Positions 2,545 to 48,133 of a DNA stretch of 64,000 nt are shown in pieces. The notes beneath the pieces were generated by a model. That model was not told the DNA's origin. It made no database searches and saw only the letters and a list, made by a program, of their open reading frames with translations. Location: the NCBI GenBank assembly GCA_019915015.1, contig JAHBBC010000046.1, forward strand, positions 1 through 64,000, given 5' to 3'. The first letter of the stretch is position 1; each line of letters starts with the position of its first letter. A program made the translations under genes and the position numbers. Source of the stretch: Auriscalpium vulgare. Taxonomy: Eukaryota; Basidiomycota; Agaricomycetes; Russulales; Auriscalpiaceae.

Positions 2545-4581
2545 TCACACTTTCTTCCTCGCAGTTTGTCCTATCTGTCGCTCTGTATGGACCTTCAAGA
2601 TTACCTCTGAGACGGGATGCCCACTTCGTGCACGGTCTGCGCACCATTCCGAAAACTCCTCCACGCCATGGATGCCCTTTCTGATGCGTGACAAAGCAAG
2701 TGAAGATAGGTGCGGCAGCACTACGGTGGCGGCCCCGTCACCTCCGTCTTCGGCCATGGGTAATGCTTGATCCATGAGCAGCCTCAAGAAAGTCTCCCCT
2801 GTAATCCCCCATGCGCACACGCGCCGCAGCCGGGGAGACTGAACGATGAGCGAATTCCACCCGTGGGATTTGAGTTCCGCAGTCAGAGCGACCTGGGCGA
2901 GTGCCGAGCCCCAGAAGAGGGTGCACGCGGCCGCGGCAATGGCGGGTTGACGTCCAAGGCCGAGGCCATGCCTGTAGTTTATGTCCAGAAGCACGTCGGG
3001 CTCCGGTTTCCTCGCGCGGCTGCATGTGTGGAGATTGCCCGGATATTCCATCCACGCTTCCACGAGCATCCTGTCTGGGTCACCCGGCGGGGACCGCCTG
3101 GACTGAATCCGAGCAGCGACGGGCTCAAAGCGTTCTGCCCTCGCCGATATCCGAGAGCCCATCCACTCCCTCAGCGCCTTGAAAAATCCCTTGAGCTCTT
3201 TATCCGGCGCGATGTCACAGGCCATATTCAGCCGGATAAGTGCGCGCGCTGGCACGGCAAGATTTGCCAGTAGGTACGTACACTCCCAAGGTGAGGCCCG
3301 GAGAGTAAGTTGCATGAGGCGCTGGAGGATGACCATTCGTCCTCTTAGCCTTGACGCCGCCCATTTGGAGTGGATGTCATACGAGCAGGATGCAATGCAC
3401 AGCCTTGCGAGATTTGGCAAGCCCTCCAGCATGTCGAGGACGGTAGCGAGGGGTGTAAGTATGTCATTGTCAAGTACCACCTCGAGCGACTCGATGCCGT
3501 GCAGGGAAGGACGAGCCCAATCCAGTGTCCTATAGAATTGGTGAGAGAGGAGATCGCGGAGGCGCGGAGCGTGCAGAGTAAAAGCATTGCGAGACCGCAG
3601 AGATAGGCTGATGTATTGTGTGAAGATTTGTTTGAGGTGCAGGCTCTCTAACAGCGGCATGTCTGACGGAAGGTCATCGAGGAGAGCGTGGAGCGCCCGT
3701 TCGTGCCCATCGAGATGCAGTGCTCGTACACGTGGGCTGTTGTCGACAATGAGGTCCAGAGCACTTTCCTGCGGTATCATGTAGCTGGTTTCTTCTTCAT
3801 CTTCGTCCATGACTCGGATGAAGGTGAGCGGAGCATTCTGTGCGCGACGGACCATCTCGTGCGCGCCGTGTTCGCCGAAGGAGAGGTCGATGACGGCCCA
3901 GAGGAGGGCAGAGTTGATGGCGAGCGTGCGCCAAGCCCGGCAAACATGCGTCACCGCAATCAGCGGACGTGCGCAGTACTGTTCGCGAAGTTGGTCATCC
4001 ATGTAGCGGCTCGCAGCGTACTCGTACTTGTCGTCCTTGTCCTTGTCTTTATCCGCTGTGGGGTTGCCTGCTCCATTATCTGCATTTTTTTTTGAATAGA
4101 TTGTTAACGCACCGTCGATTTTGTTTCCTGTGTCCGGTGTCAGATGGTCGCCCTCGTCCGGTGTGGATGTTACATCGTCGGCGCTGGTTTCGGCGGTGAT
4201 ATCCTCTCCTTCGTCGTAGTCTGCGGTATAGTCCTCTCGCCAGTCTTCCACCTCGGGAGTGTCGGCAGGCGTACACAGCGCAAATATGCGGGTAAGGAGT
4301 TCGGGTGGAAGGCGAGAAATGGGTGCGCGGGTGTTGCGGAGGGTGCGAAGCTGACGGGCAATACTAAGGATCGCACGCTCTTCCTCGTCGAATGTGCTCA
4401 GTGAGACCTCTAGGATGGACAAGGAGTTTATGGCTAGGATACGAGCGAAGAGGGCAGAGTTCCAGTAGGACGTGGCGAGTCTGGGCAGATTGGTCAATGC
4501 ATGCCAAGTACTGAACAGAAGGAACTCGACATACGACGGAGTGCCAGTGGACTCGCCCTTGCGAGCCGCGTTCGAAGACAT
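2545..4581 (-). CDS. F-box protein A with split F-box and leucine-rich-like C-terminal region
   Basis: Single 678-residue ORF from a true ATG. F-box proteins link substrates to SCF ubiquitin ligases through Skp1. The first half of the F-box (SRLPPELLTRIFALC) is near residue 90-105 and the second half (VTHVCRAWRTLAINSALLW) near 210-230. Between them lies an acidic Asp/Glu/Thr-rich insert of about 105 residues, which is unusual because the motif is normally contiguous. The rest has repeated hydrophobic leucine-rich stretches like those of fungal F-box/LRR proteins. Two paralogues, B (7-9 kb) and C (22.9-24.9 kb), share this layout but are broken in frame. A 33-nt stretch inside the insert starts GTGCGT and ends TGCAG; the same place is 32 nt in B and C, so a tiny intron or an indel hotspot is possible. 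Confidence 0.85.
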   Translation of the reverse strand: MSSNAARKGESTGTPSYVEFLLFSTWHALTNLPRLATSYWNSALFARILAINSLSILEVSLSTFDEEERAILSIARQLRTLRNTRAPISRLPPELLTRIFALCTPADTPEVEDWREDYTADYDEGEDITAETSADDVTSTPDEGDHLTPDTGNKIDGALTIYSKKNADNGAGNPTADKDKDKDDKYEYAASRYMDDQLREQYCARPLIAVTHVCRAWRTLAINSALLWAVIDLSFGEHGAHEMVRRAQNAPLTFIRVMDEDEEETSYMIPQESALDLIVDNSPRVRALHLDGHERALHALLDDLPSDMPLLESLHLKQIFTQYISLSLRSRNAFTLHAPRLRDLLSHQFYRTLDWARPSLHGIESLEVVLDNDILTPLATVLDMLEGLPNLARLCIASCSYDIHSKWAASRLRGRMVILQRLMQLTLRASPWECTYLLANLAVPARALIRLNMACDIAPDKELKGFFKALREWMGSRISARAERFEPVAARIQSRRSPPGDPDRMLVEAWMEYPGNLHTCSRARKPEPDVLLDINYRHGLGLGRQPAIAAAACTLFWGSALAQVALTAELKSHGWNSLIVQSPRLRRVCAWGITGETFLRLLMDQALPMAEDGGDGAATVVLPHLSSLALSRIRKGIHGVEEFSEWCADRARSGHPVSEVILKVHTERQIGQTARKKV

Positions 4582-4825
4582 GGCTTGCAGGGTGTTCAGA
4601 AACCTTGTTCGGTATTTGCAGTTTCTCTAAGGATAACCATGCGCACTGGATCTTCTGACGAATGAAAAGGTCAGGCTCGGGCAGGAAGTTACGTCGAGGC
4701 AAGCAGAGAGGAAGCGTGAGAATTCAGGCTTCAACCGAACCCCGTCTTCAACTTGACTCTGCACCAGCTCTGCACCTTCCCGCATGCAGAATGCTCGCTT
4801 TCTTTCCCTTTTGAGCCACACGGAT

Positions 4826-5700: not shown

Positions 5701-5733
5701 CCCTATCCAGATGGGCGCGCGTAATGTATCGCC

Positions 5734-6098
5734 CTTGTTTTCACCGGAGCGTTCGTCGCCCCGGTACATTCGCATGTGTCGATCCCCCCCATAACTGGTA
5801 AGTTGATGGCCTCTCCTTTCCAGGTTGACAAGGCTGATTTGCGCTACCTGCAGCCGCGGCCCTGCAGACTGCAGCGAGCGCTCCTGGTGGCTCTCCCGAC
5901 TCTTCTAAGTGAGCGTGCCTCGCGCCACAGAGGTCAGCTCCGGTCCGACATTACCACTCTCGTGTCCCCACTAATCGACCGTGATGGGCTTTCTTCCAGC
6001 CGAAGGAACTTGAGCGGGATGCGGTGGTATTGTCAGTGGCGTTGAGATGCAGTCGGGTTCACGACGTGTTAACTTGTATAACAACTTCGTTCAATAAA
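5734..6098 (+). pseudogene. 5'-truncated secreted-peptide gene (SP1c), relative of the repeat-peptide precursor
   Basis: This copy matches the intact gene at 31900-32096. It keeps the leader part FVAPVHSHV, the intron (GTAAGT to CTACCTGCAG, 56 nt), an exon 2 ending in APGGSPDS plus two residues, and the downstream region through AATAAA at 6093-6098. The first codons, including the ATG, are missing and replaced by the R1 repeat. It ends close to and tail-to-tail with the deleted F-box gene at 6143-6714, the same arrangement as SP1b with F-box gene F at 30-32 kb. Presumably non-functional. Confidence 0.7.
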
Positions 6099-6142
6099 CG
6101 CCGCCGCGCTCAACTCTCTCTCTACATCCCCTAATTAGAAAA

Positions 6143-6956: not shown

Positions 6957-9055
6957 ATGGCTATCACTGATTTCTTTTTTCGCCCTTCTAAAAGGTATGT
7001 CTTCGAGCGCGGCTCGCAAAGACAAGCGGGCCACTTCTCCCAAGAATCCGTCGTATGTCACAAAGGTCCTTCTGTTCCTTGGCATGTATTCACCAATCCA
7101 CCCAGGCTGGCCACATCCTACTGGGACTCTGCCCTCGCCGCTCGTGTACCGGCCATAATCCCCTCATCTATCCCAGAAGTTCCGCTGAGCACATTCGACG
7201 AGGAAGAGCGCGCGATCATCCGTGTTGTCCGTCAGCTCCGCACCCTCCGAAACAACCGCGCACCCATTTCTCGCCTTCCACCTGAGCTCCTCACCCACAT
7301 ATTCGCGCTGTGTGCGCCTGCCGGCACTCCCGAAGTGAAAGATGGGCTAGTACGGGATTATTCCACGGACTACGAAGGAGGGGATGTCACTGCCGAAACC
7401 AGCGCCGAAGTAGCAAACTCCACACCGGACAAGGGCAATAATTGGACACCAGACACAAGACATATAATCGATGGTGCGTAAATGATCTATACAAAGGACA
7501 TGCAGATGATGGAGCAGGGAACCTCACAGCGGGCACGGACTTGGACTTGGACGACAAATACGAGTGTGCCGCGAGCCGCTACATCATGGATTACAAACTT
7601 CGCGAACAGTACTGCGCACGTCCGCTGATTGCGGTCACGCATGTTTGCCGGGCTTGGCGCACGCTTGCCATCAACTCTGCCTTCCTCTGGGCCGTCATTG
7701 ACCTCTCCTTCGGCCAACAAGGCGCGCACGAGATGGTCCGTCGCTCAAAGAATGCGCCACTTTCCTTCATCCGAGTCATGGAAGACGGCGAAGAAGAATC
7801 GGACTGCATGATACCGCAGAAAAATGCTCTGCGCCTCATTATCGACAACAGCCCACGTGTGCGAGCACTTCATCTGGAAGGGCACGAACAGGCACTCAAC
7901 GCTCTCCTCGACGGCCTTCCGTCGGACATGCCGCTGTTGGAGAGCCTGAACCTCAAAGAAGTCGTCACCGAATACGACGAAGAATCCGATATGCCGTTTG
8001 GAAATTTCTCTACTCTGCACGCTCCGCGCCTCCGCCATCTCGGCTCTCATGAATTCTACAGGACACTGGAGTGGGCTCGTCCATCCCTGCATGGCCTCGA
8101 GTCACTCCACGTGGCACTTGACGAGGAAATGGCTGTGCCTCTCGCTACCGTCCTCGACATGCTGGATGGCCTGCCAAATCTCGCGAGGCTATATATTGCA
8201 ACCTGCTCGTATGTCGCGCATTCCGAGTGGGCAGATTTAAGCCCGGGAAGCCGTAGGGCCGTCTTCCATCGCCTCAAGCAACTTACTCTCCGGGGCTCAC
8301 CTTCGGAGTGTACTTACCTACTGGCAACTCTCGCCGTGCCAGCGCGCACACTTGTCCGGCTGAATGCGGACTGTGTCAACGGGCCGGGTGAAGACTGCGC
8401 GGTATTTTTCGAGTCGCTAAGGCAGTGGATGGGCTCTCGGGAGGGGACAAGGGAACATCTCTTTGAGCCCGTCGCTGCGCGGATCCGGTCCCCGCCGGGT
8501 GAGCCGTCCAGGGTGCTCGTGGAAGCGTGGCCGGAATATCCTGGCGATCTCCACATTTGCAGGCGCAGCACCGGCCGCGCGGAAGCGGAAGAACCGGAGC
8601 CCGAGGTGCTTGTCGACATAACATGGAGGCGTGGTTTTGGGGGCGCTGGAGCTGAATCCACCATCGCCGCGGCGGCGTGCAAGCTCTTCCGGGGCACGGC
8701 ACTCGCCCAGGTTGCTGTGACTGTGGAACTCTATTTGGGAGGGTGGGATTCGCTTGCCGCTCGGTCCCCCCGGCTGCGGCGCGTGAGCGCGTGGGGGTCT
8801 ACAGGGCAGAGTCTCATGAACATGCTCGTGTATCAAGCCCTATCCACGACTGAATATCCAGGTGACGCACCGCGCGCCAACGTACTGCCGCATCTATCTT
8901 CGCTTATTTTGTTATGCATCAGAAAGAACAGCGAAGACGCGGAGTTGTTCTCAGGATGGTGCGCAGAGCGTGCACGAAGTGGGCATCCCGTACCGGAGGT
9001 AGTGTTAAAACTAGTTCGATACAGCCCAACGGATATGTACCAACAGTGGCAATGA
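6957..9055 (+). pseudogene. F-box protein B, paralogue of A, split over frames
   Basis: Close homologue of F-box A in the opposite orientation. The early frame matching A's N terminus starts at an ATG at 6993, shifts near 7080, runs to a stop at 7481, and continues in another frame from about 7442 to 9055. The F-box halves (SRLPPELLTHIFALC and VTHVCRAWRTLAINSAFLW) and the whole leucine-rich C-terminal region are preserved. The second shift falls on a stretch bounded by GTGCGT and TGCAG that is 32 nt here and 33 nt in A. Because C has the same breaks, either these are short introns or B and C descend from one frame-shifted ancestor. If the introns are real, the gene could be functional. Confidence 0.7.
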
Positions 9056-9850: not shown

Positions 9851-10686
9851 GTGTCAGCGGTCCGCCAGGATTTAAGAACAACGGTTCCGAGTCGAAACTG
9901 AGGTGGTGCTATGTTCTCGAGCATACTCTGGGTCCCCAGAGTCGGAGACCGCGACTCGATGGGCGTAGTACTTGACTGAGACGTGGCCGCGTTGTGTGGT
10001 TCAAGCTTTTATGGGATCGTCTTGAAGCAGCGCAGCCAGACCATCGTCTCAATCGCACTCGGCGCGCATAAGTCAAGTAGGTTGGATTATAGAGACAGAC
10101 AAGGTGTATGCGGCGGATGGAGGTCCGACGTCGACGCGCGTCGCAGAAGGGAATGTTCCCACGACCTTTGCTCGTCCGGCCCGCCTGTCATGCTACGAAT
10201 TTTGGAACAAAAGATGGTTGACGCGCGTTGCACAGCTGCAGCTTGCCAACTCTTGCCAACGCGTGCACGGCAAACTCCCAACGCGGTACGTAGCAGGGTG
10301 TCAAGACCACAGCCGCCTCTGGCACATGCCTCCGAGAAATCGCAAGTCTGCCTCTGGGTGGTCTCCGATCCGACCCGGACGGCTTTGATGACGGTCACCA
10401 ACCTGGAAGGCCCAAAGGGCGAGTAGCGAGAATCCGAGATTCCCATAGCGCAAGCCTGGCCGGAAGAGCCTGCGCAAGGACTCCATGACCAGGCCTCAGG
10501 TGAGGGGAGACGCGTCGAGATACGGAAGCGGATGGATACCAAGCCGATCCTGCTGTCGACGTCGATGTACAAAAGGTTGGCAATACAGACGGTGGTCTCC
10601 CCAGGTCTTCCCCCGATTTCCTTGTCTGGTGTTGTCCTCTTTAAAGTCGCCCATCTGCACTTTACTCTCTCAGTTCCGCGCCCGCA
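9851..10686. other. Intergenic region upstream of the PL14 lyase
   Basis: No supported gene. The longest ORF (minus strand, 10087-10863) overlaps the lyase start antisense and has no domain. The last roughly 150 bp presumably carry the lyase promoter; no clear TATA box was identified beyond a weak tttaaag near 10640. Confidence 0.5.
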
Positions 10687-11902
10687 ATGATCTCCCCCAT
10701 CACCTTTTCCCTTGTTCTCTTCACCCTCGCCTCCATTTCCTCCGCCATTCCGACTGTCTCCCTGCATCCGGCAGCGTCCAGCTTTGTCGTTGTCAAGTCG
10801 TCGTCGACGACCAAGAATGACTTTGCAGCCGGCCGGAATCATACATCTTCCTCCGCACCCCATCCCTCCAGTACCTCCAGTGCTCCGCCTGCTTCTACCC
10901 CGTCAGGATCCCCGGGCAGTATTGCCGCGCTTCTCAAGGACCTCTTCCCCGTTTCCACGGGCTTGGTGTCGTTCACCACGGTCGCCGGCGCGCCGGGTGG
11001 TCTGCCTCTCTCCGACAGCACCCTCCGCCCAACCAAGGAGATTTCCAGTCTCCCCCATCCGTACGTGCAGTCGCCCGGACCCAACTCCAAGCTTGCCATG
11101 CAGGCCCACTACAGCAAAGGATCGTGGACGTTCGGCTCCGGTCCCCCTGGTGGCTTTGACATGTACGCGGCCGGGCCTGCGAGCCTTAATGCCGCCCTCA
11201 CCTCCGCAAAGGAGGCGACCTTTGGGTATTCGGTGTTCTTTCCCGAGAACTTTGAGTTCAACATGGGTGGCAAACTTCCTGGCTTCTGTACGTACTTTCA
11301 ACCTTTGAACATCAAGCCCAACAATGAACTTATGTTCGCTTTTTCAGACGGTGGTATCAGCCCCGCTGTTGCGGCTACCTGCTCCGGTGGTAGCCGGGAC
11401 CCCGACTGCTTCTCCACCCGCCTCATGTGGCGGATAAACGGCGCTGGGGAGGTTTACACCTACCTGCCCCCGTACGACGAGCCCCAGTACGCCGCGAACC
11501 AGAAGCAGTGCACTGTCCCGCCTTTCTCTGAATGCAACCCGACTTACGGCGCGTCTGTGGGTCGCGGCGCGTTCCACTTTACGCCTGGCAAATGGACCAC
11601 CGTCAGTCAGCGCGTGCGCCTCAATGACCCCGGCCAGGCGAATGCCGAAATCGAGCTCTTCGCCAACGGCCAGTCTGTTATCTCAGTAACGGGCTTGATC
11701 ATTGCCGACAAGGCGTCATCCCGGCTTCAAGGCATGCAGATCCAGACCTTCTTTGGAGGTATGTGCTTCATAGTGCTCTGTAAGATACCCGATTGCTCAT
11801 ACAATCTCGCGCTGTACAGGCCATACCTCTGATTGGGCATCTCCCACGGACCAAGACGCGTACTTCGCCGATTTCTCGGTTGCCGTCATACAGAAGTTCT
11901 AA
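10687..11902 (+). CDS. Secreted polysaccharide lyase, PL14-like, three exons
   Basis: Predicted 364-residue protein. Exons are 10687-11287, 11348-11758 and 11820-11902; the introns of 60 and 61 nt have GTACGT/GTATGT donors and CAG acceptors, and joining keeps frame throughout. Residues 1-19 form a signal peptide (SLVLFTLASISSA), followed by a Ser/Thr/Pro-rich linker to about residue 80 and then the lyase domain. Splicing restores the family-typical KLPGFYGG and FFGGHTSDWASP segments, which the unspliced frame breaks. CFSTRLMWR and GRGAFHFTPGKWT are further PL14-type blocks. Known PL14 enzymes cleave glucuronan or alginate-like polyuronides by beta-elimination outside the cell; the exact substrate here is not known. 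It is one of the best-supported ordinary genes in the window. Confidence 0.9.
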
Positions 11903-12742: not shown

Positions 12743-14476
12743 TTACCCATGACTAGGTAGATCGTATATGCACGATATGTCCAGTGCCTCGATGGGTGCA
12801 GGCCAACCGATGTCGTCCCAATGTCCACCCGACACCGAGACCAGTCCCTCGCACCCCTCTCCGCCGTCCCCTCGCCACCTAATAACCATCGCCAGCACGG
12901 CATCCTGTAGCCTGCGCACGCAGGCATTGTCCAATGTACACCCCAGAACGTTCAGCTCCTTCAGCGCGTAGCCTGCCTGCGCGCGTGCTGCGAGACCCAG
13001 CGCCAGCGTGTCCGCGAGTGTGCGAACTGTCCCATCCGGCGCAGGGGCTTGGGACGCCTCCTCGAAGTCGGTGCGGGCCAAAACGAGGGTGGACAGCGCG
13101 GGCAGGAACTCCTCGGTCCGGTGGAGGGCATCGCAGAACGGGCGCACCGCGACACCCTTCAGCACGACGCGGCGCAGCCCGCGCGCAGAAGACAGCGCAT
13201 CCAGCCACGCGTCGGTGGGCACATCGCCCGATGCAGCGAGCTCCTCGAGGGCGTCCGAGCAGAACGCAGGCAGCACGGTCGCGGAATCGCGCTGCGGGGA
13301 GGCTGCGTCGCAATGGAGTCGGAGCGTCAGCGCGGGCGGGCCTTGGGTGTCCGCAGAGCGCCACGCGAGGAGGTCGACCCCGGCCTCGCCCAATGGCCGA
13401 GCGGGCGCGAAGTTGACGCGCAAGGTGGGCGCAGACCGGGCGCCGGTGCATGCAGCAAGCGCGCGCAAGAGCTCTGGGAGATGCTGCTCTGCCTCGGCAC
13501 TGTCCTCGCTGCAGGGAATCTCGCAGCAGACGCGGACGTCCTCCGGGAACGCCAGGCGGGCGAGAACGACGCGCGCATCCGCGACCTTCGCATGCAAGCG
13601 CAAGTCGCGCACCGCGGGAAGCGCGACGGGCGCGCCCGACGACCTCCTCCTGACGTGATGATTGATGTCGAGCTGCAGTGTGATGCGCTGCAGCTGGCGG
13701 AGCTCGCCCAGCGTCTTGAACGTCTCTGTGAGCGTGGCGTCCGCGAAGATCCGCATCGCGAGGTCGAGCGAGACGAGGCGCGTGAGCAGCCCCCTCGGCG
13801 CCGACCAATTTGCCGCCCTGTCCGAGCACACGCGCAGGTGTTGCAGCGCCGGCGCACCTTCGGGCCCGCCGAGCAGACTGTCTGGGAGTTTAGGGATGGC
13901 CCGACTCGGCATATGCCACCCGTATGTCCGGGTGTTGAAGCAGACATTAAGGGTATGGAGGTGTGGGGCGGGGCCGTGGAGAAGGGGGAATAAGATGTCG
14001 GTGTGGTACAGGTGAAGGTCCAGGACGCGCACACGGGCGAGGTGTTCTTCAATCAGATCCCACCGGCTGTGATAGGGATCCGAAGCCATGGAGTAGTCAG
14101 GTTGTATCATGGACATATGGGAGTAGGTGATTTTGAGTGGAATATTTTGAGCACGGGATAAAAAGGTGTCGACACCGTCCCTGCCGAATGGGTGAGGAAG
14201 AGTGATGTTGGCCCAGAGGGCGCTGTGATCAAGGGCAACGTGGCGCCAGCGCTGGCAGACGTGAGTAGCACAAAGCCATCCGCGGTAGGTTCTGATTGTC
14301 TCTGGCCATGTTTGCCTTATTTCAAACGAAGGTGGGTCGATTGAACAGAGGATGGAGAGGATATAGGCAAGTGTCTCGGGTGGGATGCGTGAGATGGGTT
14401 GCTCAGCGTTGTGCTGCACACGAGCAGCGTGTGTATGTGCGCGATTTGTGACGTCGGGTTCGTCGAATTGGTCCAT
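12743..14476 (-). CDS. F-box protein D, intact
   Basis: Uninterrupted ORF of about 577 residues from the ATG at 14476; a TTG-initiated extension to 14494 is less likely. The F-box is near the N terminus (SRIPPETLAYILSIL, then ATHVCQRWRHVALDHSALW) with a normal short spacing, unlike A-C. The remainder is Leu/Ala/Arg-rich with repeated hydrophobic segments, consistent with a leucine-rich substrate-binding region. It is GC-rich, which creates long antisense shadow ORFs. A telomere-like box lies about 65 bp upstream. The N-terminal segment TNRAHTHA matches the truncated gene E at 29.8 kb. The likely role is a substrate adaptor of an SCF ubiquitin ligase; the target is unknown. Confidence 0.88.
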   Translation of the reverse strand: MDQFDEPDVTNRAHTHAARVQHNAEQPISRIPPETLAYILSILCSIDPPSFEIRQTWPETIRTYRGWLCATHVCQRWRHVALDHSALWANITLPHPFGRDGVDTFLSRAQNIPLKITYSHMSMIQPDYSMASDPYHSRWDLIEEHLARVRVLDLHLYHTDILFPLLHGPAPHLHTLNVCFNTRTYGWHMPSRAIPKLPDSLLGGPEGAPALQHLRVCSDRAANWSAPRGLLTRLVSLDLAMRIFADATLTETFKTLGELRQLQRITLQLDINHHVRRRSSGAPVALPAVRDLRLHAKVADARVVLARLAFPEDVRVCCEIPCSEDSAEAEQHLPELLRALAACTGARSAPTLRVNFAPARPLGEAGVDLLAWRSADTQGPPALTLRLHCDAASPQRDSATVLPAFCSDALEELAASGDVPTDAWLDALSSARGLRRVVLKGVAVRPFCDALHRTEEFLPALSTLVLARTDFEEASQAPAPDGTVRTLADTLALGLAARAQAGYALKELNVLGCTLDNACVRRLQDAVLAMVIRWRGDGGEGCEGLVSVSGGHWDDIGWPAPIEALDISCIYDLPSHG

Positions 14477-14540
14477 GTAATTTGTCGAGAGCAAGTGCCA
14501 AGCGCGCTCGCCGCTCGCTCACTCGAGGCGCAGGCGCAGC

Positions 14541-26379: not shown

Positions 26380-27600
26380 GCTTCGCAGAGGATTTGCCCC
26401 ATACCCTAGACGTGGGTTTGACGCTGGGGTCTGACCATGGGCCACAATGTGAAGCTACTGGCGGCTGTGGTGTGTGTATTATTCCGTCGTTACTACACAC
26501 TTGCTAACTCACGCTTTTGATAAACAGGATGCTAGTACATCCAATAAGCGGGCGTTCCAGCAGGCTTTCGCGGGAGCCGAGGCGCGCCATTCCGAGTCGC
26601 GAATGCCTAAACATCGTCGTTATACCAATAGGTACTATGAAACGGCGTCCCCGCTAGCCGCCTCTTCTCAGCAGGGCTCTGAAGCATTCGTGGATGAACA
26701 TGAATGCCGCGCTCCAGCTCGTCTCTCCTTCCGTGTTTGGACGTGGTTCTTGGCCCCCTCTTGAAATCGTGTAGTACCTGTGAATAAACAATAAACATTG
26801 CTAATAAGTGGTTCCAGGCAAGCTCCTCCGCGCGGCTCGGGCTCAGAAGGCATAGTAGAAGCCGGAGAAGTCCCCCGAGCTCGAGGCGACACTTAAATAC
26901 CGGTTTGGTATATTTGGAACATGGGACGAGGCTTGCTGGAGGCTGGAGCAGCAGCGCGATACGTGGCGGAAACAGAAGCACCAATCAAAGGACGCTTTGG
27001 TGACGCTGGAGCGCCGTGCATGTCACCGCGACGGCAATATTGAGCTGGTGAGTGCTCTTTCAGTGTCATGTTGTGTGCCAATGCCAAGGAGACTTTTGCA
27101 GAGCATTCCTCGCGGAGGATAATTGATAATCACATCGCAGCCGCGTTGAAGTTTGCCTCCAGCGTTGTCCGTGAGTAGACGACCCGAGCTCGCTGCAGTT
27201 CACGACGCACGTATATGGATTTCGTGCTTATATCTATGCCATTATGTCTCATTCCTTTAGTTACTTGATTCTCGGGATCAGAGGACGTCTATGAAAATGT
27301 TCAAACAGTAAATACTTCTTGTGGGAGTCACAGCTCACAAATGATTCTCTTCGTGCTGTCTATATGTCGCCTCGGCGTCAACCCGCGCGGCGATCGCGTC
27401 CGGTGTACGAGAGAGTCAGAGCAAACAAGGCTGCACACGTGGCGTGAGCGTCGATGTGTTCGCATCTGTTTGCTGGCGCAGAAGAGCGGGCATCAAGTGC
27501 GGGCACCGTCCGCCGCGCCAATATTCATGCGTCGTATCGCCGGGCACAAAATTTTGAATAAGACTTTGCGCGCAGATAGATAGTTCGGACAAAGAGAGTG
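26380..27600. other. Gene-poor; one protein-like exon candidate
   Basis: On the plus strand about 26920-27051 reads as a charged, helix-like segment (EQQRDTWRKQKHQSK, later RDGNIEL). It ends exactly at a GTGAGT donor with a TTTTGCAG acceptor 54 nt later. No complete gene could be assembled, and the following exon soon hits stops. The rest shows nothing supportable. Confidence 0.35.
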
Positions 27601-27796
27601 GAGAAGCGGAGGCATTTATTGAACAATATACCCGTGAACACGTCGTGAACCAAACTGTGCATCAACGCCATCGACAATACCGTCGCATCCCACTACATTC
27701 GTCCGGCTGTAATAATTGTTGTAACGGTCAATTAGTGGGAATGGGTGAGTTGCTGACGATAATTGCACGGACCTCTGTGGAGCGAGCAACGCGCAT

Positions 27797-28609
27797 TCAC
27801 CAGGACTGGTTAGGGGTGCCGTCGACGTCGTCGCGGCGCCTGCGGGCACGCAAGTCAGCCTTCATCTTCGAGCGACTCGGAAATCCACTGTTTGCTCACC
27901 AGGACTGGTTAGGGGTGCCGTCGACGTCGTCGCGGCGCCTGCGGGCACGCAAGTCAGCCTTCATCTTCGAGCGACTCGGAGATCCACTGTTTGCTCACCA
28001 GGACTGGTTAGGGGTGCCGTCGACGTCGTCGCGGCGCCTGCGGGCACGCAAGTCAGCCTTCATCTTCGAGCGACTCGGAAATCCACTGTTTGCTCACCAG
28101 GACTGGTTAGGGGTGCCGTCGACGTCGTCGCGGCGCCTGCGGGCACGCAAGTCAGCCTTCATCTTCGAGCGACTCGGAAATCCACTGTTTGCTCACCAGG
28201 ACTGGTTAGGGGTGCCGTCGACGTCGTCGCGGCGCCTGCGGGCACGCAAGTCAGCCTTCATCTTCGAGAGACTCGGAAATCCACTGTTTGCTCACCAGGA
28301 CTGGTTAGGGGTGCCGTCGATGTCGTCGCGGCGCCTGTGGGCACGCAAGTCAGCCTTCATCTTTGAGCGACTCGGAAATCCACTGTTTGCTCACCAGGAC
28401 TGGTTAGGGGTGCCGTCGACGTCGTCGCGGCGCCTGCGGGCACGCAAGTCAGCCTTCATCTTCGAGCGACTCGGAGATCCACTGTTTGCTCACCAGGACT
28501 GGTTAGGGGTGCCGTCAAGGCCGCCGTCGGCAGCGACGGGCATCGGAGTGGCAAACACCGGGGCAACGAATGCAGCAACGGCCAGGGTGACGAAGGAGAG
28601 GAAGTGCAT
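27797..28609 (-). CDS. Secreted repeat-peptide precursor with seven identical mini-exons (KEP/RiPP-like)
   Basis: Exon 1 (28609-28494) encodes a signal peptide (MHFLSFVTLAVAAFV, cleavage likely after PVFA) and a short region ending DGTPNQS. Seven 39-nt exons follow (28433-28395, 28334-28296, 28235-28197, 28136-28098, 28037-27999, 27938-27900, 27839-27801). Each is preceded by a 60-nt intron with donor CTG/GTGAGC, GCTGAC branch and CCCGCAG acceptor. Spliced, they give seven WRRDDVDGTPNQS units and a final Trp before TGA (27797-27799), 130 residues in all; the second unit reads DDIDG. RR before each core is a Kex2-type site, so the expected product is DDVDGTPNQSW after trimming. A TATAAGTA box (28680-28687) and AATAAA (27615-27620) frame the gene. 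Kexin-processed repeat precursors include fungal pheromones and dikaritin RiPPs. No UstYa-type (DUF3328) partner was found here. Function unknown. Confidence 0.82.
27801..28493 (-). repeat. Seven tandem 99-bp exon-intron units
   Basis: The period is exactly 99 bp (39-nt exon plus 60-nt intron), with seven copies and exon 1 beginning the eighth. Copies differ at only a few sites: gaaatcc/gagatcc in units starting 27900 and 28395, agagact near 28268, and four changes in the unit at 28296, one of which gives Val to Ile. Near-identity of the introns points to recent expansion or ongoing homogenisation. On the plus strand the array happens to be open as a 33-residue repeat (ORF 27645-28652), considered an artefact. 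Confidence 0.95.
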
Positions 28610-28679
28610 GATTGCTTGGATAGAACTAGAGCTGGAGGAAAACGGCTTCTGATGATATTGGAGGAGGGAGTCGCCGTCG

Positions 28680-28687
28680 TACTTATA
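28680..28687 (-). promoter_or_regulatory. TATA box of the repeat-peptide gene
   Basis: TATAAGTA lies about 70 bp upstream of the ATG and sits in the longer string TATAAGTACGAC, which is also present upstream of the paralogue SP1b (32165-32172). Conservation in both supports a minus-strand promoter. Confidence 0.65.
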
Positions 28688-31582: not shown

Positions 31583-31899
31583 GCCCTGCGTGAGGAGGTG
31601 CCGGGTATGCTGGTGAATGTGCGATGGAAGGTGGATTAGCTGAAATCTGACGTCGGCGGATCGTTTTCGAATTAGGGCATGTAGAGAGAGAGTTGAGCGC
31701 CGCGGCGTTTATTGGGCAAAGTTGTTATACAAGTTGAACACGTCGTGAACCCGACTGCGTCTCAACGCCACCGACAATACCATCGCATCCCACTCAAGCT
31801 CCTTCGGCTGCAAGAAAGCCCATCACGGTCCATTAGTGGGGATACTACGTGAGTGGTGATGCGACCGGAGCTGACCTCTGTGGCGCGAGGAACGCTCAC

Positions 31900-32096
31900 T
31901 TAAGAGTCAGGAGAGCCACCCGGAGCGCTCACTGCAGTCTGCAGGGGCCCATCTGCAGGTAGCGCAAATGAGCCTTGTCAACCTGGAAAGCAAAGGCCAT
32001 TAACTCACCGCGTGTGGGGGCGAGCGACACATGCGAATATACCGGGGCGACGAACGCTCCGGCGAAAACAAGGGAGATGAGAGACAAAAATTGCAT
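31900..32096 (-). CDS. Small secreted peptide SP1b, two exons, single-unit relative of the repeat-peptide gene
   Basis: Exon 1 (32096-32009) encodes MQFLSLISLVFAGAFVAPV and ends in LAPTR. A 56-nt intron (GTGAGT...CTACCTGCAG) leads to exon 2 (31952-31900), whose product ends APGGSPDS before TAA; total 46 residues. The intron's last half (AAGGCT, TTGCGC, ACCTGCAG) aligns with each intron of the repeat-peptide gene. The leader FVAPV, the TATAAGTACGAC box and the 3' region through AATAAA (31708-31713) are shared too. There is no dibasic site, and only one core-like unit (GGSPDS versus DGTPNQSW). It lies tail-to-tail with F-box gene F. The splice model is supported by conservation in the pseudogene at 5734-6098. 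Function unknown. Confidence 0.72.
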
Positions 32097-32164
32097 GTTT
32101 GCTTGGAGATACAACTTGGACGGGAGGAAATTAGCTGTTGGAGATTCCGGAGGAATGGTAGTCG

Positions 32165-32172
32165 TACTTATA
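32165..32172 (-). promoter_or_regulatory. TATA box of SP1b
   Basis: TATAAGTA within TATAAGTACGAC lies about 70 bp upstream of the ATG, in the same position and context as in the repeat-peptide gene. Confidence 0.6.
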
Positions 32173-32179
32173 GTTCGAC

Positions 32180-34700
32180 GACACTCGGGCCACCCTCCGC
32201 CTCCGCATCTCGCAGTCGAGATGGGCATGGGCTGAAACACGGAGAAGACAAGAAATCCAACCGACGAGATGGCTTGACATGGATGCGAAAGATGGACCGT
32301 ACTTCCCCGCAGCGCTGGCGGGCCCTCCACATCATCTTGGCTGTGGTCATGGGCGCGCTTTTGGTTCAGAATTGTATCCGTGAGACGATAGTCACAGTCA
32401 TTGCACCCACTTCCTAAGTGTGTGCGTAACCTCCATTTACCGTCAGTGACGGTGTGGCACTCGCCCTTGCAGGTTTGCCCGTGCCCGCAACCAAGATTTC
32501 CTGAGAATTAGTCAGATACAATTCGAGTGCGGGCAGGGTACCGTTGTGAACTGCACATATTGTTACTTACACGCAGAGCTGGCCTGCCTCGTCATCAGAG
32601 GTTGCTGCAAAGATCTCTGTGCTGCCTTGCGACGCCGAGATTACGATCTAGAATTCGGAGTCCCTGTCAGGTGCGCATCTAACAGGGGAAAGAGACTCTC
32701 ATACCTAGGAATTATGAGCGCATGTCGGCGCAATTTTGCTGTGACTGCGCCATGGGGAAAACGGAGGGAGTGGATTATTGCGTTATTCAAGTTCAGCGGC
32801 GCCGCAGCTGTTACCCAGTCAATACGATGGTGGAAAGAACTCTACGGGTACCACGGCAGCGGTAGAAAGCGGCGTCCGTGGTCGCCAGACATCTTTGATA
32901 ATTATAGAATGAACGGTGACCATTGAGGCTGGCAAGGTGCTACGCCGTACATGTAGCAGCTCAGGCCGCTCGACTCTGATACCTCCGGACACGTACTTAG
33001 CGGTAGATGCGCTGTTGGTATGGAGGAACTGCGGACGCACAAGCTGTGAGAATGGGGCTCAATAAGAGCATGAAAGTGATGTTGTGGTAGGAGGTAAGGA
33101 GCAAGAGTCGTGAGTGCGACCACGACCGTGACCACGGTGGCACATGCTGGACTGGTTACTGAGGCGGCGCCGTTCTTACCTCCTGCCACAACATGTTCAC
33201 TAGCATCACTTCGACCGCCTCAACCTCACACTTTACGCGCGTCTTTTCGCGTCATCTAAGTAACATCATCTATAACATAGCTGATCTATTTCCTACCGCC
33301 AGAGTCATTCGGTCGCCATGTCTCCAAATATTTGACATCCTCCCGCAATGGGCCTGTCTTCGCATCAACCGTTCAGCTGCTGGTCAGGCCTCAATCTCAA
33401 GGTCAATAGATATCATCTGCAAGCCCGGGCACCATCGTCAACCCTGAAGTCTGCGCCAGACAGCTCAAATACGTGCGTCGTCATCGTCTACGCAACCAGC
33501 CCTACCGCTGAACATGCCGGCCTTCCGCCCCTTGTACCTCGTAGTAAGACTCCCCATCCTTGCTCAATGCCAGCATGCCAGCATTATGCCTCAAATCGAC
33601 GTGAAGGAACCGCCGGAGATTTTTATCGCAGTCGCAGACGGCACCAGGTGCGTTGACAACAGATCCTGTCGCGCGTTGGGAAGCTGACCTACCTCCGCAG
33701 CGTTTGAACAATGTACTCTACGTAACGCGCATATCACGAACGCATCTACAGCAACAAGTTCTGAGAAGGCGGAGACCGCGGTTCCCAGCACCTCCAGCGC
33801 CGTGGCCACGACCGCCCCTAGGTCCGAGGAGCGTATCAAGCATCATTGGGCGGGGTTTACTGCGCGAGAGATGCGTGCGTGCAGGAGGTCAGTGCGCGCA
33901 GACGATGGCATACAGGTGTGTGGAATGTCTTCGAATTGGCCCGCGTCGGCATGTACTGACGTCTCGCTTGGCCAGCTCATCGTAAAGGCCCAGGCCTGCT
34001 CTGAGAGTCGTCCAAGGACATTGAGATAGGGGCCATCGCTCAAACTATATCTCCCTACCATGGGCCTCAATCTCGTCCAACATCAAACACGTCACGGGTA
34101 GTCGTAGGGGTGTTCCGCGGACATTGACCGCCGGCAGAATTTGTCTCTCTCATGTGCAAATTGCGTGACGTGTCGAGCGCATCACGGCCGGGGTCGAGGA
34201 CATCCAAAGATTGGCGTGTCGAGGGATAGAGGCATGCGGCGAAGCTATGCAGGTATGTGAAGTTGGAATTGTGGTGACGTGCACCCAGGCTGACTCCTTC
34301 TTCATTATCAGCGTGGTCGGACTCCATAGAAGCCGCGTAACATGCACATGTCGGTCGGCGGAGCGTTTGCATCATCGCTCTCGGTAAGTCAATAGGCCAG
34401 AGTGACCCGCCCGTCCGCCTCCCACACCTTTTCGCGCGCGCCCAGACACCGCTTTCGCTGGACACGCGTCCCCGGTGCGTCGGTGGGTCCCCGACAGCGC
34501 GTGCCGATGCGCCCGCCGCGTGCGACGCAATATTTGCAGACGCACTGCCGTCAAAGTTGCCAGTCAGATGAGCTTGGGGTTCAAGGTGCGTAAAGTGTGT
34601 CAGCTTGATGTCAAGGTGCGCTGACGCTGGCCTCAGGGTGAATCCCGTTGAATGCATTCGGAAGACCCGCAAAGGCGACGTGGCGCGAGGCGAGGCGGGC
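32180..34700. other. Gene-poor; weak spliced-gene candidate near 33.5-34.0 kb
   Basis: On the plus strand an exon-like piece (ATG near 33585, KEPPEIFIAVADGT) meets a good intron (GTGCGTTGAC...GCTGACCTACCTCCGCAG, about 33648-33700). It is followed by a Ser/Thr/Ala-rich open frame (SSEKAETAVPSTSSAV). The reading phases do not match across that intron, so it is either a decayed gene or mis-modelled. Nothing else is supportable. Confidence 0.3.
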
Positions 34701-45714: not shown

Positions 45715-48133
45715 ATAAGGGCATCATCTTCTCGAGCCTGGTGAGATAAGCACGGCCCTCTGGAATCACACGCGCTGCGTGCAGAAGTTTCCCGTAGAGC
45801 TTTTGGAGCTCTCGGAGGTCGTGCGTGCGGGAAACCAGCCAGGCGGAGGTGGCTGCGAGGTATTTGGCCTGCTTTGCGGGCACGAGGCGGACCGTTTTGT
45901 GTTTCAAATTCCATATGAGTCCGATGTACGGGACTTCCTCAGAGAACGGTACGTCTTTTTCCAATTGCCATGGAATCCCGAGCTCTGCGGATACGGCGTC
46001 GATGTCCGCCATGCAGCATGAAAATTTTTCGTCCTCGGCGGTGCGAGGGGATGCGCCGGACAGGTCTTGGACCGGGGTCGAGCAATCGTCGTCGAATTCT
46101 TCGACGCGCCCGTCGGGGAGATCTGCCCCGCGGTACCAAAGACGGCCGCCTGTGTGCTGTACGCCGCCGTTGGCGACTATCCGTCGGTGGCACTGCGCGC
46201 GGAACTCGTTGTATTCCGCTATGTACTTGCGTAGGATTCGTATGAACGGGTGGTCATCGACCCACTTGGAGACAGGCCCTAGACCGCGTGCACGCATAAT
46301 GGCAACTGCGGCGTCTTGGAGTCCGCCGTATACGCCGGCGTTGGGCGTAGCCCCGAATGCGGCGTTGGTGTCCAGCATGAATGCGCGCTCCTCGACATTG
46401 GAAATTCGGACGACCGCGGCGGGCCACTGCGAGGGATGTAGCGGGACGGTGCGGTAGGCTTCCGACACGTCGCGTACTGCACATTGGGAACCTGGCGGAA
46501 GTCGGAGGACGATGAGTGCGAAGGTGGAAAAGGTGCCCCATGTGCAAGGGAAATGGTCAGAGATGACGTGGGAATTAATCGACGACACGCGGGAGGAGGG
46601 ACTGCGGGGGAAAGAGAAATTCTGTATGAGGCGGAGCTTCGAGGGATTGTGTGGCTTGGGAATGAGGGAAAGGGGGGAAGTCTGGAAAGGGCCTATTAAG
46701 GACTCGAGCTCTGGGCGGGAGAAAGGGCCGATGTAACGTCCTCGGTCAATCTCAAGCTGTACAGTATTGGCAAAGTTCTCTGGGTGGTCAAGAATGGAAG
46801 CATCATTAAGGGGCGCGAAGGTAAAAGATATGGAAGGGAACTCGACGACAAAACCATGTGTAATGCCTTTCACAATATGTGCGTATGTGTCGCGGAGGCC
46901 GGCCTCCGAAAGGGCGGCCGCCCACGCGCCGACTCTGTATGGCGTGCGGGGGTTAAGCTTTCTCAGCTCGACTGCAGCGCGCAGCGCCGTGGTTCGTGTT
47001 GCCGCATCCGGAGCATCGGTGGCGCTCCTGGTGACCGGAGCTGCGACATCCGCTTGAGCGCTGCCAATCGATGCAGATCTGCTCATCGTCGGGGAAGACG
47101 AGTCTGTGGCGAGAGTTGCGCCGGACGTACGCTTTGTCGCCGTTCCATAGCGTGTTGGCGTTGCATTGCGCGAAGTCGTGCTCTTTGGTGCTGAGGCAAA
47201 GGGCGCAAATGCGGGCCGCTTTGGGAGCGGGAAAGGACTGGCGCGATGATGACGACCTGGGAGGCGGGGATGCGGATGCGGATCGCTGACGCTTGCGCGC
47301 GGGCGGTGCGGGGGAATATGACGTCGAGCGCTTCCGCCTGCCCGACTTCGAAGACTTCTTGTCGGGCCTCCCGCGTCCGCCGGCGTTCGGCTTGGACGAT
47401 GCACGACCGCCTGAGGGGGTGTCGCCTCTGGAGCGGCGGTTGTCGTCGCGCCCTTCGATGAGGCTGAGGTGCGTGCGCCGAAACGCGTGATGCGTGTGCG
47501 GAAATGCGTGCGGTGCCAATGCGAATAATGCGAGCGTGCGCGGGGTATGTGCGGTATTGCAAATGCGTGCGTGCGAGGTAATGCGTGCGTCCGCCAAGGC
47601 GGGTAATGCATGTATGCGTGGCAGTGTATGCGGTCGCCGAGGCGAGGGTGCGTGCGATCGCCGAGGCGGATGGCAGCGTATATGCAAGTGCGGGTTCGAG
47701 CGCGGGCGCGAATGCGAGTGCGAGTCCGAGCGCGGGCGCGAATGCGAGTGCGAGTGCGGGTGCGGATGAGGATGCGAATGCGAATGCGAATGCGAATGCG
47801 AATGCGAATGCGAATGCGAAATGCGAGATGCGAGATGCGAAATGCGAAATGCGGGTGTGAATGAGAGTGCGAGTGGACGTGCGCGTGCGAGTGCGTGTGA
47901 GGGGGTGTGAGGGGGTGTGCGGGACGTGAGGCGTGGCGGGAGAGGGGAAAAAGGGGAGTTAGCGCGGGAGGAGGGATGAGGCGACGGGCAACTGACCGGT
48001 CCGCGCAGCCTACGAGATACTCGTCTTGGTACTTGTTCTCGAAGCGGCGGAAGAGTTCGTCATTCCAGATGCCGATGTTGATGCGGTCTTCAACATTGGG
48101 CAGGTTTAAAGAGTCGTGCCACTGCTTGCGCAC
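44972..48133 (-). CDS. Reverse transcriptase / RNase H of the DIRS/Ngaro element
   Basis: Continuous open frame of 1053 residues, open up to the gypsy junction. RT motifs lie at about residues 480-680: KLRLIQNFSFPRSP, RDVSEAYRTVPLHPSQWPA with the first catalytic Asp, and the KWVDDHPF box with the paired Asp. RNase H is at about 845-975: LSAYSDASSEVGIG, GWAEAVGFEFL, YGDNQGVVEGWW and SANNPADKPSRG supply the D-E-D-D set. The first 450 residues are low in complexity, including an Arg-Ile run coded by a GCGAAT satellite. In the 47.0-47.46-kb part another frame clearly encodes a gag-like zinc-knuckle protein. RT is therefore probably made by frame change, reinitiation or intron retention. Confidence 0.82.
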   Translation of the reverse strand: MRKQWHDSLNLPNVEDRINIGIWNDELFRRFENKYQDEYLVGCADRSVARRLIPPPALTPLFPLSRHASRPAHPLTPPHTHSHAHVHSHSHSHPHFAFRISHLAFRIRIRIRIRIRIRIRILIRTRTRTRIRARARTRTRIRARARTRTCIYAAIRLGDRTHPRLGDRIHCHAYMHYPPWRTHALPRTHAFAIPHIPRARSHYSHWHRTHFRTRITRFGARTSASSKGATTTAAPEATPPQAVVHRPSRTPADAGGPTRSLRSRAGGSARRHIPPHRPRASVSDPHPHPRLPGRHHRASPFPLPKRPAFAPFASAPKSTTSRNATPTRYGTATKRTSGATLATDSSSPTMSRSASIGSAQADVAAPVTRSATDAPDAATRTTALRAAVELRKLNPRTPYRVGAWAAALSEAGLRDTYAHIVKGITHGFVVEFPSISFTFAPLNDASILDHPENFANTVQLEIDRGRYIGPFSRPELESLIGPFQTSPLSLIPKPHNPSKLRLIQNFSFPRSPSSRVSSINSHVISDHFPCTWGTFSTFALIVLRLPPGSQCAVRDVSEAYRTVPLHPSQWPAAVVRISNVEERAFMLDTNAAFGATPNAGVYGGLQDAAVAIMRARGLGPVSKWVDDHPFIRILRKYIAEYNEFRAQCHRRIVANGGVQHTGGRLWYRGADLPDGRVEEFDDDCSTPVQDLSGASPRTAEDEKFSCCMADIDAVSAELGIPWQLEKDVPFSEEVPYIGLIWNLKHKTVRLVPAKQAKYLAATSAWLVSRTHDLRELQKLYGKLLHAARVIPEGRAYLTRLEKMMPLFGKNPHKPLTPPHGTEADMRWWAAVLSRPRLQRTLPPIVTPLDLSAYSDASSEVGIGICIGGRWRAWKLCDGWKSDGRDIGWAEAVGFEFLVRTLLAFPRHPQQQDLLVYGDNQGVVEGWWTGRSRNQPTNIVFRRIHRLLADTDTRIHSRYVPSANNPADKPSRGIYSSRTLLLPPLDIPDELTPFVIDFDARLSPGDRRRVSQHGPNPKKRTPRSHDAARAVFHTERRLEELRLPSQPHVLGSSS
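46953..48133 (-). CDS. Gag-like zinc-knuckle ORF of the DIRS/Ngaro element, predicted spliced
   Basis: Exon 1 (to 47997) encodes NIGIWNDELFRRFENKYQDE and ends at a GTCAGT donor. A 533-nt intron (47464-47996) ends in CACCTCAG. The second exon (47463-46953) starts IEGRDDNRRSRGD, in the phase that fits the join. It has a basic Arg/Lys/Ser region, CALCLSTKEHDFAQC, and a canonical CCHC knuckle CSGCGNTNHGAARC, and ends SRAEKA. CCHC knuckles bind element RNA in Gag proteins. The 5' part of exon 1 is cut by the gypsy insertion. The splice model is inferred only from signals, matching phases and the junk-like intron content. Confidence 0.6.
47772..47855 (+). repeat. GCGAAT hexanucleotide satellite
   Basis: About eight tandem GCGAAT units followed by degenerate GCGAAA/GCGAGA units, within a longer GCG-rich stretch (47640-47900). 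It lies inside the proposed 533-nt intron. On the minus strand it reads as alternating Arg-Ile. Confidence 0.95.

Follow-up and report, generated by a model that had tools for sequence, protein, structure and literature searches.

A gene on the minus strand of the Auriscalpium vulgare window (the whole 64,000-nt stretch of DNA analyzed here) likely encodes a secreted KEX2-processed repeat protein (KEP), with each peptide copy carried on its own symmetric phase-2 exon. The window lies on contig C46 (175 kb), in a genome of 51.6 Mb assembled as 96 contigs. The gene is real and probably functional. Its class is known; its core is new, and its cassette structure is unusual, with support from another array of this kind in a related member. 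Gene structure and family can be read from the sequence, and the processing steps are predicted from the KEP class as described in PMC9769878.

The minus strand from 28609 to 27797 was read directly and also rebuilt by script, giving a signal exon, six internal exons, a terminal exon and seven introns, with an ATG start codon at 28609 and a TGA stop at 27797. The features of the locus are as follows (exon 2 through exon 8 as in the rebuilt gene model).

28680..28687, minus strand: promoter element TATAAGTA, of the pattern TATRAGTA
28494..28609, minus strand: exon 1, with signal peptide MHFLSFVTLAVAAFVAPVFA (cleavage site by eye), the TPMPVA dipeptide stretch and the diverged copy ADGGLDGTPNQSW; aligned with seven paralogues
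28434..28493, minus strand: intron 1, 60 nt, GTGAGC..CTGAC..CAG
28395..28433, minus strand: exon 2, 39 nt, RRDDVDGTPNQS(W)
28335..28394, minus strand: intron 2, 60 nt
28296..28334, minus strand: exon 3, 39 nt, the DDIDGTPNQSW copy
28236..28295, minus strand: intron 3, 60 nt
28197..28235, minus strand: exon 4, 39 nt
28137..28196, minus strand: intron 4, 60 nt
28098..28136, minus strand: exon 5, 39 nt
28038..28097, minus strand: intron 5, 60 nt
27999..28037, minus strand: exon 6, 39 nt
27939..27998, minus strand: intron 6, 60 nt
27900..27938, minus strand: exon 7, 39 nt
27840..27899, minus strand: intron 7, 60 nt
27797..27839, minus strand: coding part of exon 8, 43 nt, with the last core, W and the TGA stop
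27707..27772, minus strand: probable 3′ UTR intron (GTCCGT..ACAG), placed by paralogue alignment
27654..27710, minus strand: conserved 3′ element around GGGATGCGACGGTATTGTCGATGGCGTTGA, from an alignment of ten family copies
27615..27620, minus strand: polyadenylation signal AATAAA, seen in the sequence

After splicing, the predicted precursor is 130 aa long and contains seven WRRDD(V/I)DGTPNQS units (RRDDVDGTPNQSW) followed by a terminal Trp. The second unit is the DDI variant, and the cores preceded by RR are thus six copies of DDVDGTPNQSW and one of DDIDGTPNQSW. A diverged extra copy, ADGGLDGTPNQSW, lies at the end of exon 1 without a preceding RR and adds to the seven cores, so TPNQSW occurs eight times in the product. 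The signal peptide fits by eye only, and it aligns with those of seven paralogues. All seven introns are exactly 60 nt long, begin with the donor GTGAGC and carry a CTGAC branch-like motif; their acceptors are CCCGCAG (six) or CCCACAG (one). Exon 1 is 116 nt. In the unspliced minus strand, each of the seven units ahead of the final one contains an in-frame stop. Tandem Repeats Finder assigned the array a period of 99, 7.3 copies, 98% matches and a score of 1398, and the array is therefore not a chance arrangement. Within the array, exon columns (1/39 variable) and intron columns (4/60) showed no significant difference in variation (p=0.65); independent support for the model comes from the paralogues.

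Much of this had been anticipated by the initial annotation, which proposed a minus-strand gene with a signal-like exon and splice signals; the script rebuild and the paralogous family bear this out. Its seven repeat units, terminal Trp and single DDI copy all reappear in the spliced product. It had also called seven 39-nt exons; repeat exons of that length do exist, but only six measure 39 nt, the seventh being the 43-nt terminal coding exon. Two paralogues in the window, near 32 kb and 6 kb, went unnoticed at that stage, as did the stops at the exon–intron borders with their bearing on splice errors, the Asn-Gln-Ser sequon of every core and the earlier findings of Trp-ending KEP peptides in Agaricomycetes (PMC9769878). 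Overall, the earlier interpretation is partly supported.

The genome was searched for relatives by signal exon, 3′ end and pattern. At least nine loci carry both the promoter element and the signal exon: A (focal), B (window, 32 kb), E (C57), F (C4), G (C13), H (C40), I and J (C11, near 1.335 Mb and 1.331 Mb, respectively) and K (C1). In eight of the nine the alignment extends to the 3′ end as well. Two further copies, C (in the window) and D (C11, 1.676 Mb), are truncated. A near-identical copy of H on C70 was left out of the locus count; the flanks of the two are also near-identical, perhaps as two haplotypes in the assembly. Members mapped to intervals are listed here.

31690..32200, minus strand: paralogue B, which shares its promoter element, signal exon and 3′ end with the focal gene; its core has been lost or altered, its intron is in phase 1, and it is possibly decayed
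5728..6116, plus strand: paralogue C, truncated and without a visible in-frame start; identity to B is 89%
C57:80500-80860, plus strand: member E, a single-core relative with DPVAGSDVERSGCYHGCW between RR and KR
C11:1327500-1337000, minus strand: neighboring members I and J, modelled with ten and nine exons, many of 24–75 nt

TATRAGTA was found 74–143 nt upstream of the ATG in all nine signal-exon loci (as the variant TATGAGTA in H), against an expectation of 0.005 per 220 nt taken from a window count that includes A and B themselves. The 3′ element aligned in ten copies, A to J, with K outside the alignment. As a pattern allowing up to three mismatches, it occurred at nine places in the whole genome, all of them family copies (A, B, C, D, F, G, H, the C70 copy of H, and J; E, I and K were missed), and the reversed control gave none. 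Rfam gave no match at gathering scores in seven sources around this element. A coding role for the conserved block was considered and rejected, as open frames through it, compared by eye, differ between A and B. In these two loci the block is read as 3′ UTR, probably derived from the last coding exon still seen in member I. At the probable 3′ UTR intron, AG/GTCAG..CAG/CC (slashes marking the borders) aligned in most paralogues and agrees with the final coding intron in the model of member I.

Several local observations concern the truncated copies and the rest of the window. The upstream truncation is identical in C and D, which suggests that the copying took in their flanking sequence as well. 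Both B and C lie near F-box-like frames, diverged copies of which surround the locus (2545-4626, 7442-9055 and 12743-14518). Two of seven frames scanned reached the Pfam F-box-like cut-off; the frame at 7442-9055 is similar by eye only. Elsewhere in the window (47683-47899), an array of about 27–35 copies of a 6-nt unit sits in a long open frame beside retroelement-like frames.

Core sequences, as read from the gene models, differ among family members. Member E has a single core, RR-DPVAGSDVERSGCYHGCW-KR-GDGSPDASQ, with a Trp end expected after trimming; we take the two Cys and terminal Trp of this core to resemble ascomycete alpha-pheromones. Member G has repeats of DGDDLLPPPFQT between Arg-Lys pairs, and member I has EIANELE-like peptides alternating with a 43-residue peptide. 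In I, which has ten exons, all nine introns are in phase 2, RR occurs at seven of nine junctions, and a two-exon unit is repeated three times. Across the models of A, E, F, G, H, I and J, 39 of 39 introns are in phase 2, a count that leaves out B (one phase-1 intron) and K (no usable gene model) and is not independent of method, since models were chosen by splice signals and open frame and the ends of F and H are uncertain. By manual count in the same models, 22 of 39 acceptor exons begin G-CGN, and Arg therefore opens the exon. A family with the same promoter element and mostly the same intron phase strengthens the case for the minus-strand gene.

Member G on C13 carries a second array of the exon-per-copy type, whose eight short repeat exons measure 39 or 42 nt. 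Its introns after the first are 51, 55, 58 or 65 nt long, differences that are not multiples of three, and the repeat exons stay in triplets. Across five full units (exons 3–7, with the diverged exons 2, 8 and 9 left out), substitutions affect 3 of 42 exon columns as against 17 of 55 in the introns (p=0.005, Fisher test); once gaps are counted, the intron figure is 21 of 55. The units are arranged in a higher-order duplication and are thus not fully independent. In the predicted frame, which exon 1 sets, none of the three exon changes alters an amino acid; read in either of the remaining sense frames, they are not silent. The antisense frame with the same wobble positions is likewise unchanged. 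Exons 2, 8 and 9 also differ in amino acids. Because introns differ in length, exons stay in triplets and changes in full units are silent, the C13 array serves as an independent test that supports the gene model. As a weak splice control, actin-like genes gave a frame-keeping intron candidate in 5 of 11 gaps between matched exons. The best-ranked intron was 49–59 nt with GTGAGT or GTGCGT in four of these five; in the fifth, candidates of 101 and 65 nt ranked equally.

The focal copies are near-identical and young, three paralogues (B, C and D) have been truncated or changed, and focal exons and introns vary alike, all of which would also fit a decaying, non-functional locus, a pseudogene in neutral satellite-like expansion. 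We consider this unlikely: all seven donors, all acceptors and the reading frame are intact, the promoter element, stop and polyadenylation signal are present, and exon change in the five full C13 units is silent only.

Under the KEP reading, the signal peptide would route the spliced precursor into the secretory pathway, where signal peptidase would act. Kex2 would cleave after each Arg-Arg and a Kex1-type carboxypeptidase would remove the two Arg, freeing up to seven copies of DDVDGTPNQSW (one of them DDI) plus a longer N-terminal peptide from exon 1. The genome search gave one match to the Kex2-type P-domain (PF01483), in a stretch that reads through one TGA, probably an intron. The RR-separated cores of a Kex2-type precursor, proposed in the initial annotation, hold up at the level of predicted genes, with seven cores after RR, paralogues under the same promoter element and the second exon-per-copy array. 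Each core also contains Asn-Gln-Ser, an N-glycosylation sequon, and the product may therefore be a glycopeptide, possibly N-glycosylated at this site. In the C13 member the dibasic sites are Arg-Lys, a weaker Kex2 site, instead of RR; Umemura counts RK among the KEP dibasic sites (PMC7329392). The mature focal peptide is most likely linear, and would most likely serve in cell signalling or in interaction with other organisms. For the linear peptides, the calculated [M+H]+ is 1233.502 for DDVDGTPNQSW ([M+2H]2+ 617.255) and 1247.518 for DDIDGTPNQSW. The array would have grown by tandem duplication of the 99-nt exon-plus-intron cassette, within a family of fast-changing secreted precursors.

Splicing may bear on how much peptide is made. 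Because each donor follows TG and begins GTGA, a retained focal intron would place a stop right after Trp. Single retention of introns 1 to 7, when modelled, left one to seven copies, with whole cores and a TPNQSW end in all seven cases. All 64 combinations of kept and skipped internal exons stayed in frame, with two to eight copies (the diverged first copy included). Since the modelled skips and retentions leave whole cores, splicing would change dose and hardly sequence. This tolerance of splice errors could have been selected, or it could have arisen incidentally when the last exon was duplicated; intron-retained forms could also be lost to nonsense-mediated decay. Schistosome micro-exon genes (PMC4350168) similarly yield secreted products from very small symmetric exons that tolerate alternative splicing. 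They are unrelated animal genes, however, and the focal exons, unlike theirs, are near-identical copies, so that splicing here would alter the number of peptides and hardly their sequence.

The KEP definition (Umemura 2020, PMC7329392) calls for an ER signal peptide and at least three tandem repeats of at least eight residues between KR, KK, RK or RR; the focal precursor has an N terminus that looks signal-like by eye and seven 11-residue cores after RR. It shares with Agaricomycete KEPs dibasic-separated repeats and predicted Trp-ending peptides in the range of 7–11 residues, besides the signal-like N terminus; the KEP peptides are linear and were reported by mass spectrometry. Examples in PMC9769878 are L. 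edodes KEP 2599 (7-fold SGTGEASAADW repeat, detected in fruiting bodies), P. ostreatus KEP 1091723 (SGVAADW) and C. cinerea KEP 490115 (QYKAPSW, from Pichia expression), all Trp-ending, and some KEPs, such as 497993, yield peptides that do not end in Trp. Given the 7-fold Trp-ending 11-mer reported from shiitake, the focal peptide seems unremarkable as a type. In the same paper, knocking out six C. cinerea KEPs produced no phenotype. The focal gene differs in its core sequence, in the lack of a STE13 motif in its repeats and in having one exon per copy. KEP genes with one exon per repeat were not described in the literature searched, which covered few subscription papers and included PMC10182648, PMC8786786 and the main text of KEP papers. 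In SP7-like effector genes an intron is conserved ahead of the first repeat, but the repeats do not each occupy an exon (PMC11333574).

Searches with the product and its core returned little. The spliced focal product had no significant match among 5.8 billion proteins, a set that includes some annotated A. vulgare proteins; its three hits (E 2.8 to 10) were taken as noise. As a coverage control, the neighboring polysaccharide lyase 14 frame (10645-11829) matched an A. vulgare protein: 329 of 358 aligned columns are identical, and a single gap accounts for 20 of the remaining 29, as expected if the host is A. vulgare or a close relative. The focal gene may be absent from the annotated A. vulgare strain. 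The product of member I likewise had no homologue at E≤1 among the best 8000 candidates scored, and the core strings TPNQSW, DDVDGTPNQ and GTPNQS had no literature match.

Pheromone precursors offer another comparison. The focal protein has a signal-like N terminus and ends in TPNQSW, not in the CaaX motif of basidiomycete a-type pheromones, as initially noted. It resembles ascomycete alpha-type pheromone precursors in its signal-like N terminus, predicted Kex2 sites and repeated short peptide, but lacks the STE13 motif (XA/XP) that immediately follows their dibasic sites: each of the seven cores opens with DD-VD or DD-ID, and the XP/XA dipeptides lie in TPMPVA, after the signal peptide. A genome search for a STE2 receptor gave no match, and its control also gave none.

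Might the secreted product instead stay wholly or partly uncut and work as a repeat protein, or have a structural role, rather than being a free signal? In Ustilago, the Rep1 repeat precursor is likewise processed by KEX2, and its peptides assemble into amyloid-like fibrils (PMC9769878), but DDVDGTPNQSW is short, acidic and polar and does not seem amyloid-like by composition. Either role is quite improbable.

The initial annotation had also raised a RiPP of the ustiloxin/phomopsin (dikaritin) type, in which UstYa-like enzymes would cyclize the cores after the Kex2 cut. Dikaritin precursors (ustiloxin, phomopsin and possibly epichloecyclin) do have the same layout, with a signal peptide and repeated cores between dibasic sites (PMC9769878), and the genome has at least 14 matches to UstYa (DUF3328). 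None of the 14 listed lies on C46, however, and the closest to any family member found, on C4, is about 164 kb away; by contrast, the distance reported by Umemura averages 3.09 genes between a KEP and its accompanying DUF3328 genes. The focal core lacks Tyr and Cys, its Trp is terminal, and the analysis found no feature that supports a cyclic product. Cyclization in this way is very doubtful.

That the true gene is the 364-aa plus-strand frame (27558-28652), encoding a 33-residue repeat protein, is barely credible: it is open through the whole array because 99 is a multiple of three, but the family promoter element, signal exon, splice sites, 3′ element and AATAAA are all on the minus strand, and in the unspliced C13 array neither strand has an open frame that runs the whole way (11 stop-to-stop frames of at least 40 aa overlap it, the longest of 163 aa, and none crosses it).

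With the secreted KEP as the preferred reading, what is new is the core sequence and the cassette architecture, one exon per peptide copy being the unusual part. We tentatively extend this to the family as a whole, though we would not yet lean on it: its members may be built of interchangeable phase-2 exon-plus-intron cassettes, each exon encoding one Kex2 peptide. Splicing would then set copy number, with no modelled skip or retention spoiling a focal core, and duplication of cassettes would multiply peptides and let new cores arise quickly. On the same tentative reading, proteome-based KEP surveys would miss such genes where tiny exons are missed; the Umemura survey began from annotated proteins (PMC7329392).

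A precursor split into exons of 39 to 42 nt is easily missed by gene prediction, and the related genes of similar build hint that fungal genomes may contain peptide genes of this sort that have escaped notice. Were the cassette design widespread among mushroom-forming fungi, the peptide repertoire of these fungi would be undercounted. The family also offers a natural case of a shared leader with fast-changing cores, and one of peptide dose set by exon duplication, not by codon-level repeat growth.
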